From Acidobacteriota bacterium (GTDB taxonomy: Bacteria; Acidobacteriota; Terriglobia; UBA7540), in the NCBI GenBank assembly GCA_021838785.1, contig JAKCCV010000023.1:1-55646 (forward strand): 55,646 nt of DNA, written 5' to 3'. Made by a program: the position numbers and the translations under genes. Under the pieces are notes generated by a model, which saw only the letters and a program-made list of their open reading frames with translations, was not told where the DNA came from and made no database searches. How positions within the stretch are numbered: the stretch's first letter is position 1; each line of letters starts with the position of its first letter. Below are positions 5,586 to 36,150 of the stretch, in pieces.

Positions 5586-5894
5586 TCAGTCGAGATCAAT
5601 GTCACGAAGGGGGGCTGTGGGCGGCTCATCCTTGGAGCGCTTCAATACTTCCTTAAACTTGCGGTCGAGTAGTTGGGACTTGGCTTTTTCGGCTTCGGCA
5701 CTTTGCTTAAAGAGGTCTTCGCGGCGCTGGGCCTCGGCCTCAAGCAACTGATGGGCGTCATGGAGGTCACGGTTCTTTGCCGAGGGGAGCGCGGGTTCAT
5801 GCGAGATGACTTGCCCAAGGGCCGCGTCAATGGTTAGACGGCTGCCGCAGTGAGGACAGGTGAGCCGAATGGGTTCTTGAGCCGGGCGCCGCAT
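5586..5894 (-). CDS. Small zinc-ribbon / coiled-coil protein
   Basis: This encodes 102 residues with no signal peptide. The N-terminus has CPHCGSRLTID, one CxxC knuckle, followed by a charged helical segment (HDAHQLLEAEAQRRED to KFKEVLKRSKDE) likely to form a coiled coil. Only one CxxC is present, so a complete zinc site would need a dimer or the nearby His residues. Function unknown. The M23 promoter lies just downstream of its stop codon. Confidence 0.6.
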   Translation of the reverse strand: MRRPAQEPIRLTCPHCGSRLTIDAALGQVISHEPALPSAKNRDLHDAHQLLEAEAQRREDLFKQSAEAEKAKSQLLDRKFKEVLKRSKDEPPTAPLRDIDLD

Positions 5895-5934
5895 AAGTTA
5901 AGGCTACGCCGGTGGGTGGTCACTGTCAAACTGC

Positions 5935-6058
5935 TGTCCTGAGTCAGAAGTTCGATGAACAACTCAAAGCCGGTTTCACGCCAAGGCGCAAAGGCCGCCA
6001 AGGACTTGCGGGAGGCCGGACGGCCCGGAATTATTCATCCTTGTTACGACTCGGGACA
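5935..6058 (+). repeat. MITE-like 124-bp dispersed repeat, copy 1
   Basis: This non-coding element of 124 bp recurs as the reverse complement at 34917-35040 with the same length and about 108 of 124 positions identical, without gaps. Its ends are an 11-bp inverted repeat with one mismatch, TGTCCTGAGTC at 5935-5945 and GACTCGGGACA at 6048-6058. Internal landmarks are GTTTCACGCCAAGGCGCAAA near 5973 and CTTGCGGGAGGCC near 6005. No target-site duplication is obvious. It sits between a zinc-ribbon gene and a DUF4097 gene. Confidence 0.8.
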
Positions 6059-6115
6059 GTATAATGAACCCGAGCGATACTCCGTCCATAGTTCCCACGG
6101 CTCATCCGCGCTCCG

Positions 6116-7123
6116 TCATCGGATATGGATATCGCCGCGGAGCGTTGTGAGTTCGAGGCGAAGGGTTCCATCACCCGCCCCACTCAGGTGTGCTTGGTTG
6201 GCCGCTATGGAATTCAATGGCCGCAGGGCTTTGATGGTTCCTGCGAGGGTGCGAGCGTGGAGTTCCACGCCGGTGGCTGGCGGCAGGCCTACGGTTAGAT
6301 CGCCACATGAACTGGTAAGCGTCCAGCGACCCTTGCCGCCTTTGCCCTCTACGGCAATCGCTCCGCTGAAGGATGTCGCCCGGATTTTCCCGCTGACGTC
6401 GCGAAGATCAATCTGACCGGAGCCTGCGGTTGCGACAAGATCGTCGGAGGTGACATGCTCCATGCTGATGAGGCCGCTCCCTGTTGCGGCGTGTAAAGGG
6501 CCAGCAACATCTCGGGCAAAGATGGACCCGCTCGCGGTCGAAATCGTCACACGCCCTCGGACGGATTGAACCTCCACCTCCCCGTCGGTTGCCAACGCAA
6601 CCACGTCTCCGCGAGCGCCGCGCACGGTAATCGCTCCGCAAGAGGTTGAGGCGTCGAGCGACTCCGCCGGCCCCTCGACCGTAATGCTGCCCGAACTGGC
6701 TCGGCAGACGATGCGGCTGAAGAAAGGAACGATAAGATCGTAATTGATGAAGAGATGCCTTTCCCTTTCCATCCCCAGGACACGGCCGATTTTGATGATG
6801 CTTCCTCGCTGCTCGATGGGCGGATTTTGCTGTAAAGAACGGAGGCGCCCTTCGAGCTCACCCGGCGCCACGATGCCCGCGCGGGCTCGAGCCAAGGCGC
6901 GAACTTGAATTTCCTCAAGGTCGGAAGCGGTGACATGGATGTGGCCGCAGAGGACTTCAACGAAAACTTCCGCTCTTCCCTTGACCGGATGGGTCTGCGC
7001 GAACCGCCCCTCCACGCTCATGGAAGGGAAACCGCGAGCTGAGACGAGTTTTTGGGGCGCCACGGTCACCATTCTCGCATTGCGCCCCTCCCAAGCGCTA
7101 TTTTCGCCTGGAAACCTATCCAC
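6116..7123 (-). CDS. DUF4097-type beta-strand repeat protein
   Basis: The open frame has 335 residues from a GTG. An ATG at 7072 (MVTVAPQKL) is an equally plausible or better start, since the first 17 residues look non-coding. From about residue 140 the protein is built of short degenerate repeats of the type SGSITVEGPAES, CGAITVRGARGD, SGSIFARDVAGP and SGQIDLRDVSGK, the signature of DUF4097/DUF4098 right-handed beta-solenoid proteins. These usually carry a signal or membrane segment; none is visible here. Function unknown; bactofilin-like assembly or polysaccharide contact are possible but unproven. Confidence 0.7.
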   Translation of the reverse strand: MDRFPGENSAWEGRNARMVTVAPQKLVSARGFPSMSVEGRFAQTHPVKGRAEVFVEVLCGHIHVTASDLEEIQVRALARARAGIVAPGELEGRLRSLQQNPPIEQRGSIIKIGRVLGMERERHLFINYDLIVPFFSRIVCRASSGSITVEGPAESLDASTSCGAITVRGARGDVVALATDGEVEVQSVRGRVTISTASGSIFARDVAGPLHAATGSGLISMEHVTSDDLVATAGSGQIDLRDVSGKIRATSFSGAIAVEGKGGKGRWTLTSSCGDLTVGLPPATGVELHARTLAGTIKALRPLNSIAANQAHLSGAGDGTLRLELTTLRGDIHIR

Positions 7124-17161: not shown

Positions 17162-18658
17162 GTGGCGCGTCTAACACTCCCTTACCCGGTTCCGTGGGGC
17201 GCGGGCGTCCCGCCCGGGCAAAAACACGGCCAAGATGGCCGTGCCCCAAGCTCTGCGCCTGTAAACCTATTTGCGTCGCACCATGCGCGACTCAAGCGGA
17301 GTCTCAACAAGCCTTCTGGTGCATGGGGTGGACAAAGGTCCTCGGTTCGGAGGATTGCCGTCCGAGCGTTGATCTGCGCATTCGGGTTGGGATTTCTGGG
17401 GATCCTCCCATGCTCTGGGGCAACTTCTCCTCGGCCGCTCGTGGTGGAGGTGGACCTTGACGGCGCGATCCAATCCATCACGGCTCGGTATGTCGCCAAT
17501 GGAATTCATTATGCGAACGAACTCCACGCCAATGCGGTGCTGCTGGAGTTGAATACCCCCGGCGGTTTGGAAGACTCGATGCGGCAAATCATCGAGGCCA
17601 TCGTGGCTTCGCGCGCCCCGGTCATTACCTACGTCTCCCCGAGCGGGGCGCGGGCGGCCTCGGCGGGTTTCTTCATTCTGATGGCCGGCGACGTGGCGGT
17701 GATGGCGCCCGGCACCAACGCCGGCGCGGCCCATCCGGTGGTGATTGGGGGCATCCACGTGGGTAAGACCATGGAGAAGAAGATTGAGAACGACGCCGCG
17801 GCCTACATGCGCGCCATCGCCCAGAAGCGCGGCCGCAACGTTCAGTTGGCGCAGGCGGCGGTGCTCCAAAGCGCTTCCTATACCTACCAGGAGGCTTTGG
17901 ATGACCATCTGATTGATGCGGTAGCCAGCTCGCCCGAGCAAATCTTCCAGGAGTTTAACGGGAAAACGATTCAACGCTTTAACGGCACGACGACGGTGCT
18001 CCACCTTGAAGGCGCGCGGATTCAACGCTATTCGATGTCCGGCTTTAGCCGGTTTCTTTCATGGCTGGCCGATCCCAACATTGCCTTCATCTTGGGCGCC
18101 TTGGGCGTGCTGGGCCTTTATGTCGAGTTCACGCATCCCGGTTTCGTGTTGCCCGGGGTGGCCGGCGCGATCGCGGTGGTTCTGGCGTTATTCGGCTTCC
18201 ATCTGCTCCCCATTAACTATGCGGGCGTGATTTTGATTTTGCTCGCCTTGGCGATGTTTGTGATGGAAGCGAACTTTACGACCCACGGCATTCTGGCGCT
18301 CGGCGGAATTGCGGCGATGGTGGTGGGTTCCATGATTCTGATCAACTCGCCTTGGCCCGGGACGCATATCCATCTGAGTACCTCTCTGAGTGTGACGCTC
18401 CCTCTGGCCATCATTACCATTTTTCTCATGCGCCTGGCGTGGGCCGCAAAACTTCAAAAATCCATCACAGGCGTGGATGGCCTGACCGGAGCGGTGGGCG
18501 TAGCTCGGACCGATCTCACCCCCATGGGGCAGGTCTTGGTCCAGGGCGAGCTGTGGCGGGCGCGCGGGCTGGGAAATATCCCGAGCGGAACCCGCGTTCG
18601 TGTCCGAGAAGTAGAGGGCCTCACGCTCATCGTTGAGCCGATCGAGAATACTCGATAG
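17162..18658 (+). CDS. NfeD-family membrane-bound serine protease (ClpP-class)
   Basis: The start at GTG 17162 has GGAG five bases upstream and gives 498 residues, but the first 60 residues translate a palindromic repeat and look unnatural; the functional protein probably begins near the hydrophobic signal segment ALICAFGLGFLGILPC. The ClpP-like protease domain follows (VVEVDLDGAIQSI; LELNTPGGLEDS; SPSGARAASAGFFI carrying the nucleophile Ser; a Lys in EKKIENDAAAY as partner). Then come four or five transmembrane helices and a C-terminal OB-fold NfeD domain (LTGAVGVARTDL to VEGLTLIVEP). NfeD proteases of this type cleave stomatin-like proteins, and the next gene encodes one. Confidence 0.9.
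   Translation: MARLTLPYPVPWGAGVPPGQKHGQDGRAPSSAPVNLFASHHARLKRSLNKPSGAWGGQRSSVRRIAVRALICAFGLGFLGILPCSGATSPRPLVVEVDLDGAIQSITARYVANGIHYANELHANAVLLELNTPGGLEDSMRQIIEAIVASRAPVITYVSPSGARAASAGFFILMAGDVAVMAPGTNAGAAHPVVIGGIHVGKTMEKKIENDAAAYMRAIAQKRGRNVQLAQAAVLQSASYTYQEALDDHLIDAVASSPEQIFQEFNGKTIQRFNGTTTVLHLEGARIQRYSMSGFSRFLSWLADPNIAFILGALGVLGLYVEFTHPGFVLPGVAGAIAVVLALFGFHLLPINYAGVILILLALAMFVMEANFTTHGILALGGIAAMVVGSMILINSPWPGTHIHLSTSLSVTLPLAIITIFLMRLAWAAKLQKSITGVDGLTGAVGVARTDLTPMGQVLVQGELWRARGLGNIPSGTRVRVREVEGLTLIVEPIENTR
17195..17248 (+). repeat. Nested palindromic intergenic repeat
   Basis: Outer arms TGGGGC (17195-17200) and GCCCCA (17243-17248) enclose two hairpins: CGGGCG-TCC-x-CGCCCG at 17202-17216, and a perfect 8-bp stem CACGGCCA-AGA-TGGCCGTG at 17225-17243. 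The translation through it (GVPPGQKHGQDGRAP) is the kind of sequence that appears in mis-called proteins when such repeats are translated. Probably non-coding DNA or RNA structure rather than protein sequence. Confidence 0.65.
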
Positions 18659-34121: not shown

Positions 34122-34916
34122 ATGAGTTCACTGTCTCGCGTCTCTGTCGTTCAGTACTTGAACACTGTTCCCCTGGTGTGGGGAATGCTCAAGGGTGAGC
34201 AACAGGGGAAATACGCTCTCTCCTTCACGACGCCCGCCCTTTGTGCGGATGCCGTGCACTCCGGGCAAGCGGACATTGGAATTATTCCGTCCATTGAGTA
34301 TCAGCGCCTGGAGCGCGCGCAAATCTTGTCCGGCCTCGCCATTGCCTCCAAGGGCGAAGTCAAGAGTGTGCTTCTTCTGAGCAAAGTTCCCATCGAGCAA
34401 GTCAAAACGGTGGCGCTCGACAATTCTTCCCGCACTTCGGCGGCTCTTCTGCGCATTCTTCTGCGCAAATTTTACTCTCGCTTCGTCACGATGATCCCCG
34501 CCGCCCCAAACCCGGAGGAGATGCTTCGGCGCGCCGACGCAGCGCTCGTAATCGGAGATCCTGCGTTGACCTATGAAGGACCGGTCGCGGAAGTTTACGA
34601 CCTGGCGGCCGAGTGGAAAAGGTTTACAAATCTTCCTTTTGTGTTCGCGCTTTGGGTGGGACACGAGCGGGCAGGGATCGGCCGCCTGCGCGAAGATTTT
34701 TCGGCCTCGCGCGACTTTGGCCTGCAGCATATTGACGACATTGCCGCTGAATACGCGCCTCGCTTGAAGATGCGGCCGGAAGGCATCAAGATTTACTTGA
34801 CTCAGAATATTGATTATTCTTTGGACGAGGAGAACCGAAAGGGGCTGCGCCTTTTCTTTAAGCTGGCCCGCGAAGCGGGCATCGTCCCCGTGGAAAAGGA
34901 GCCCAATTTCGCCTAG
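34122..34916 (+). CDS. mqnA: Chorismate dehydratase of the futalosine menaquinone pathway
   Basis: This encodes 264 residues. Family motifs are VSVVQYLNTVPLVWGM, FTTPALCADAVHSGQADIGIIPSIEY, KSVLLLSKVP, LDNSSRTSAALLRILL, ALVIGDPAL and the C-terminal YLTQNIDYSLDEENRKGL. MqnA removes water from chorismate to give 3-enolpyruvylbenzoate, the first step of the alternative menaquinone route. The TAG stop (34914-34916) is directly followed by the second copy of the 124-bp repeat, which separates it from mqnC. Confidence 0.95.
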   Translation: MSSLSRVSVVQYLNTVPLVWGMLKGEQQGKYALSFTTPALCADAVHSGQADIGIIPSIEYQRLERAQILSGLAIASKGEVKSVLLLSKVPIEQVKTVALDNSSRTSAALLRILLRKFYSRFVTMIPAAPNPEEMLRRADAALVIGDPALTYEGPVAEVYDLAAEWKRFTNLPFVFALWVGHERAGIGRLREDFSASRDFGLQHIDDIAAEYAPRLKMRPEGIKIYLTQNIDYSLDEENRKGLRLFFKLAREAGIVPVEKEPNFA

Positions 34917-35040
34917 TATCCTGGGTCGTAAGAAGGATGAGTAATTCCGGGCCGTTAGGCCTCCCGCAAGTCCTTGGCGAGCTTTGCGCCTTGGCGTGAA
35001 ACAGGCATTTAGTTGTTTGTCGAACTTCTGACTTAGGGCA
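34917..35040 (-). repeat. MITE-like 124-bp dispersed repeat, copy 2 (inverted)
   Basis: Read on the minus strand this matches 5935-6058 over the full 124 bp, with about 16 substitutions and no indels. The terminal repeats are more decayed than in copy 1 (TGCCCTAAGTC against TATCCTGGGTC, 7 of 11 positions). It starts at the base after the mqnA stop and ends about 70 bp before mqnC. Confidence 0.8.
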
Positions 35041-35109
35041 CTGGCTCCGTTCAACCGCTCTGAGCTGACACGCAGGGGAACCGCCGAGGTTCTGACGAAC
35101 GATCACGCG

Positions 35110-36150
35110 ATGGTGCGGATGAGCAACAGCACGGCACTCGACATGCTCCGTTCCCCCGATCTCATCGGTGTCGGGATGGAGGCCGATAGCGTCCGGCGCC
35201 GCCTTCATCCCGGCAACGTTGTGACGTATCAGATTGACCGCAACATCAACTACACGAACATCTGCACGGAATATTGTTCCTTTTGTGCCTTTTATCGCCC
35301 GGTCGGCTCGCCGGAAGGCTACGTCCAACCTATTGAAACGATCTTCCAGAAGATTGAAGAGACTATCGCCCTGGGCGGCACGGGTGCACTGATGCAAGGC
35401 GGACTGCACCCTGAGCTCACCATGGACTATTACGAGAATCTTTTGCAAAGCATCAAGCGCCGCTTTCCCTCCTTCCACATTCATGGATTTTCGGCCCCAG
35501 AGATTCTGAATATCGCGGACATCGCGGGGCTTAGCGTGCGGGACACGATCGCTCGTCTGCGCGACGCGGGTCTCGACTCAATTCCCGGCGCGGGCGCTGA
35601 AATTTTGGATGACGAAGTGCGCCATCGCATTGCTCGGCTCAAATGCAGCACGGAGGAATGGCTGATGGTTCACCGGACGGCGCACCAACTCGGGCTGCGC
35701 ACCACGGCCACCATGATGTTTGGCTGCGGCGAAACGCTGGAGCATCGGGTGAAGCATCTGGAACGGCTCCGAAATCTGCAAGACGAGACCCGGGGCTTCA
35801 CGGCTTTTATTCCCTGGTTCTTCCAACGCGAGAACACCTCGCTGGGCCGATTTATTAAGCAGGAAGTCACGGCGGTGGATTACCTTAAAACCTTGGCGAC
35901 GAGCCGCGTTTATCTTGACAACATCTTGAATGTTCAGGCTTCCTGGCTCACGCCCGGGCATAAAATATGTCAAATCGCTCTGCGGTTTGGCGGGAACGAT
36001 GTGGGCAGCATCCTGATTGAAGAAAATGTCGTTTCTGCCGCGGGCTGCACGCGCACCAGCTCTGAGCAACAACTTCGCCAGTTAATCGAAGACGCCGGCT
36101 TTCGCCCTATCAAGCGCGATACTCTCTATCGAAACTACTTCTTTAACTAG
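35110..36150 (+). CDS. mqnC: Cyclic dehypoxanthine futalosine synthase (radical SAM)
   Basis: This encodes 346 residues; the ATG at 35125 is an alternative start. The radical SAM cluster is C52-x3-C56-x2-C59 (ICTEYCSFCAFYR). MqnC motifs are NVVTYQIDRNINYTNIC, LMQGGLHPEL, HGFSAPEI, DSIPGAGAEIL, TATMMFGCGET and FIPWFFQRENT. The end has GGNDVGSILIEENVVSAAG, a C-terminal signature of the MqnC/CofH group. It cyclises dehypoxanthine futalosine on the way to menaquinone. mqnB and mqnD are not in the window. Confidence 0.96.
   Translation: MVRMSNSTALDMLRSPDLIGVGMEADSVRRRLHPGNVVTYQIDRNINYTNICTEYCSFCAFYRPVGSPEGYVQPIETIFQKIEETIALGGTGALMQGGLHPELTMDYYENLLQSIKRRFPSFHIHGFSAPEILNIADIAGLSVRDTIARLRDAGLDSIPGAGAEILDDEVRHRIARLKCSTEEWLMVHRTAHQLGLRTTATMMFGCGETLEHRVKHLERLRNLQDETRGFTAFIPWFFQRENTSLGRFIKQEVTAVDYLKTLATSRVYLDNILNVQASWLTPGHKICQIALRFGGNDVGSILIEENVVSAAGCTRTSSEQQLRQLIEDAGFRPIKRDTLYRNYFFN

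Follow-up and report, generated by a model that had tools for sequence, protein, structure and literature searches.

The window analysed here, a stretch of 55,646 nucleotides, corresponds to contig C13 of a genome (referred to as G000) with a size of 3.42 Mb and a completeness of 98.45%. Its nearest named relatives, judged by mqnC, are Terriglobia/Acidobacteriota metagenome assemblies with 81–82% amino-acid identity. Two copies of a short repeat were identified in the window, and we refer to them as copy A and copy B. Copy A (126 bp; 5934..6059, plus strand) lies 58 bp from the 3′ end of a DUF4097 (toastrack) gene (6116..7123, minus strand), and on its opposite side there is a small ORF of 102 aa (5586..5894, minus strand) with no Pfam match. 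Copy B (126 bp; 34916..35041, minus strand) lies within the CTAG that holds the stop codon of an mqnA-like gene (34122..34916, plus strand; Pfam VitK2_biosynth) and is followed by an mqnC-like gene (35110..36150, plus strand) with a Radical SAM domain and a CofH/MqnC C-terminal region. The mqnA-like gene has retained its TAG stop despite the insertion, its last letter being position 34916, which is also the outermost base of copy B.

The initial annotation had described a 124-bp repeat occurring twice on opposite strands without gaps, and this was borne out, as 5935–6058 (+) and 34917–35040 (−) gave a gapless alignment with about 88% identity (E = 3.7e-38 in a DNA search of genomes), a match that exceeds chance by far. 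The length of 124 bp holds for the aligned core, whereas the true unit is 126 bp, with one more base at each end, as defined by the CTAG/TA boundaries and by the empty sites described below. The mobile unit reads C-TA-[GTGTCCTGAGTC...GACTCAGGACAC]-TA-G, with the TA duplicated inside a CTAG target. Likewise, the 11-bp inverted repeat described earlier is present in copy A, which has the ends CTGTCCTGAGTC and GACTCGGGACAG, but the terminal inverted repeat of the family consensus is about 30 bp long and imperfect (23/30), with its first 12 positions perfect. The CTAG/TA has decayed on both flanks of copy A. In case of copy B, the ends are mutated (TGCCCTAAGTC); the CTAG on the low-coordinate side (34913..34916) is kept, with TA at 34914–34915 as one duplicate, while the other side (35041..35044) now reads CTGG, at which the second TA duplicate has become TG. 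The element encodes no protein, and the sole listed ORF that starts in copy A (5955–6416) extends past its boundary and is not a built-in feature of the family. A+T richness, which is typical of most miniature inverted-repeat elements (MITEs) without being strictly defining (PMC2229807), was absent, the consensus being about half G+C.

Searching with a model built from 27 copies, and counting a copy present on both strands once, we found the repeat at 17 distinct places in G000, with 13 full-length copies aligned end to end at more than 100 bits. Many copies with the same boundaries, which the initial annotation had named as a check, are present in the own genome, beyond the two that it had described, and more distant genera do not keep them in the same positions. 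The same model search gave about 13 copies in G003, 9 in G002, 15 in G007 and 4 in G001, numbers that are minimum values where a genome is incomplete. When 61 genomes were searched at the DNA level, the repeat was present in the own genome, in three genomes of the same genus (G001–G003) and, clearly, in two further genera of the same family (G007 and G015); matches in more distant genomes were confined to an internal block or to the outer 20–32 bases. In a set of 28 independent copies, the 124-bp core was bordered by CTAG on the right side in 16, on the left side in 10 and on both sides in 8, and the flanks past the CTAG had no common sequence and a near-random composition. The internal block TTTCACGCCAAGGCGCAAAGG (5973–6005 in the window) was also considered as a possible separate repeat; most of its close matches in G000 lie inside MITE copies. 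A few lie outside the recognised copies (G000:C17:62355, C25:35814 and C27:34939), and the block was also found in other bacterial families.

Empty sites in relatives, which the initial annotation had named as a check, were found at three places between the two closest genomes, G000 and G002. At the site of copy B, the mqnA–mqnC junction of G002 (contig C200) carries no insert (TTCGCCTAG|CGCCGTTC) and reads ...AATTTCGCCTAG-CGCCGTTC..., with 99% and 84% identity on its two sides; thus, the event was CTAG -> C-TA-[126 bp]-TA-G. The nearest named relatives also lack a copy at this junction. The copy at G000:C24:92726 is matched in G002:C54 by an empty site with CACTAGC, so that a single CTAG is seen at two of the three empty sites. 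The third concerns a copy present only in G002 (C149:5733), for which the site in G000:C27 is empty and the target now reads CTCA. These empty sites settle the boundary of the element, and the comparison of the genomes points to transposition as the source of the copies. On the other hand, copy A has an ortholog in the corresponding position of G002 (C68:2018-2142) and is therefore an old insertion that predates the split of the two genomes.

The outer 32 bases of the MITE led to an intact 1158-bp IS630-family element in G020 (C43:98-1255), a genome from another genus of the same bacterial family. It reads C-TA-[GTGTCCTGAGTCAGAAGTTCG...CGAACTTCTGACTCAGGAGAC]-TA-G and has one transposase ORF, which scored 268.8 bits against NCBIfam IS630 NF033545 (cut-off 100) and carries Pfam DDE_3 (PF13358) and HTH domains. 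The left 30 bases of this element match the MITE consensus at 28/30, with the same CTAG/TA target; the right end matches at 18/30 only, but at 11 of the 12 outer bases, so the right end of the MITE would either have diverged from that of the IS or be of another source. Judged by these ends, the G020 element is the likely partner of the MITE. The transposase gene with the same terminal repeats that the initial annotation had called for was thus identified in the same bacterial family, but not in the window's own genome: no IS630 transposase scored over the cut-off in G000, and the weak IS630-like scraps there showed no relationship to the transposase of G020 at E 1e-3. For an IS630-derived MITE, a partner within the same genome is the usual case, though not a requirement. 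Transposase relics were detected within the same genus in G003 (two short ones, 65–71%), and a search of viral contigs for the cognate transposase gave one relative, 53% identical. Decayed relatives with CTAG-TGTCCTGAGTC-type ends were present in G017, G033 and G050, and related ends (CTAG-TCTCCTGTCCCAG...) were also seen in IS630 elements of the family that are more distant. Two internally deleted IS630 forms, in which scraps of the transposase lie between the two ends, were identified in G033 (716 bp; L276:10-725) and G011 (424 bp; L287:381-804), and they are likely steps between the full element and the MITE. Longer elements of about 173–265 bp with the same TGTCCTGAGTCAGAAGTTCG ends were seen in other genera at L280–L286 and L288 (G005, G021, G031, G035 and G036), where they appear to form a second class of MITE within this IS630 group.

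Taken together, the copies with common sharp ends, the empty sites and an IS630 element that shares these ends uphold the MITE interpretation proposed initially, and the 126-bp repeat is very probably a non-autonomous miniature element of the IS630 (Tc1/mariner-type) kind, mobilised by an IS630 transposase that recognises the same ends. IS630 elements are excised and integrate at TA dinucleotides, which are thereby duplicated, and their own transposase suffices for this (PMC2170065); a preference for TA within CTAG is indicated by the title of Tenzen & Ohtsubo 1991, as cited there. The MITE would have kept the transposon ends only, with about 70 bp of non-coding filler between them. An IS630-family transposase supplied by a full-length element that has these ends would bind the imperfect terminal repeats, excise the MITE and insert it at the TA within CTAG, with the TA duplicated. 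By analogy with IS630, the movement was presumably cut-and-paste, and the MITE may have been moved in trans by the G020 transposase or by a closely related enzyme that G000 has since lost; this reading is based on the anatomy of the element and on the established behaviour of IS630 (PMC2170065). Since no intact IS630 transposase was present in the 98%-complete assembly, the copies in G000 are probably stranded and immobile now.

As a rival explanation, the repeat could be a conserved regulatory RNA, or another functional intergenic element such as a terminator or an mRNA stability element, that selection maintains wherever it occurs. Five of the six strands tested folded better than shuffled sequence (z down to −5.1) and many copies lie at gene 3′ ends; however, the end repeats by themselves account for the folding, the consensus fold is weak (−7.7 kcal/mol) with an unfavourable covariation term (+0.28), and the Rfam scan returned a tRNA-His only, with no match to the element. 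Furthermore, the places differ between relatives, the copy between mqnA and mqnC being one example, and the empty sites largely refute this reading, which we regard as very improbable; the data give no support to a conserved RNA. A palindromic repeat of the REP/BIME type, with a Y1 (RAYT/IS200-like) transposase as its mover, would also be short, intergenic, palindromic and multi-copy. IS200/IS605-type elements are not known to make a target duplication, and the duplicated TA in CTAG and the DDE-type IS630 ends are unlike REP/BIME. The G020 element, which shares the ends of the MITE, encodes an IS630 DDE transposase, and this refutes the explanation; in addition, 126 bp exceeds the 20–40 bp given for a REP unit in PMC3733652; its probability is close to nil. 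Co-option of the IS630 MITE at some of its sites is also unlikely; between mqnA and mqnC, for instance, it would serve to attenuate transcription or as a site of RNA processing. Copy B lies between two same-strand genes of one pathway and would be co-transcribed as a hairpin, and such effects are exerted by ERIC and Correia repeats (PMC2229807), but the ends of copy B have decayed and G002 manages without it.

Returning to the IS630-derived MITE, we examined 14 copies in G000, and six adjoin a predicted TAG stop exactly. The genes with a copy at their stop include mqnA and those for a PALP/CBS-domain enzyme, thymidylate kinase and the ATP synthase epsilon subunit. As the first base of the element is G, TA followed by this G restores a TAG stop, a simple route by which an insertion could be harmless; the copy at L106 parts two convergent ORFs, both of which end in its flanking CTAG. 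Compared with 7 of 72 copy-free CTAG sites, the stop overlap of 6 in 14 copies (Fisher one-sided p = 0.006), which relies on a simple ORF caller, is suggestive of enrichment, and it is as well explained by the loss of harmful insertions. Insertion in a CTAG that two convergent genes share would rebuild both stops. That targeting, beyond later selection, steers the MITE to gene ends at stop codons is unlikely. CTAG itself is strongly depleted in the window (31 sites vs about 204 expected from base composition).

The family adds a new and well-supported member to a known kind, the IS630-derived MITEs, its end sequence having been compared with the literature only, where a search with TGTCCTGAGTCAG returned no relevant paper, only unrelated ones on human cells. 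By analogy, the closest in way of life is RUP, the repeat unit of pneumococcus, for which mobilisation by IS630-Spn1 was proposed. RUP, about 107 bp long, is like the MITE family non-coding and intergenic in many copies, with IS630-like ends and a TA target (PMC2229807, PMC3049150), and it is enriched between convergent genes (PMC3049150). The likeness drawn here is one of organisation, and RUP reaches 108 copies vs 17 for the MITE. In addition, the IS of RUP is in the same species, whereas the intact IS matched to the MITE came only from another genus, the host genome having none. The IS630/Tc1-mariner elements themselves (IS630 of Shigella and ISY100) share with the MITE the duplicated TA, the preferred CTAG (by the title cited in PMC2170065) and the inverted ends; they encode a single DDE transposase, as does the MITE's likely partner, while the window element has no transposase. 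Correia/NEMIS of Neisseria are similarly small, with terminal inverted repeats, terminal TA and a long hairpin, but fall in size classes of about 107 and 155 bp, and ERIC of enterobacteria (127 bp) has nearly the same length, TA termini and a hairpin-forming sequence, but a shorter contiguous end repeat (7 bp); PMC2229807 names no partner IS for either (PMC2229807 for both).

The literature search returned no IS630 MITE named for Acidobacteriota. For a bacterial MITE the chain assembled here is unusually complete, comprising a full-length IS, internal-deletion derivatives, the MITE, its target and empty sites. The window also holds another dispersed repeat (17189–17289), about 100 bp long and composed of two palindromic blocks (GGGGCACGGGCG..CGCCCGTGCC and ACGGCCAAGATGGCCGTGCC). 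More than 20 places in the genome carry it, as do all genomes of the same genus, and at loci L110, L104 and L107 it adjoins MITE copies.
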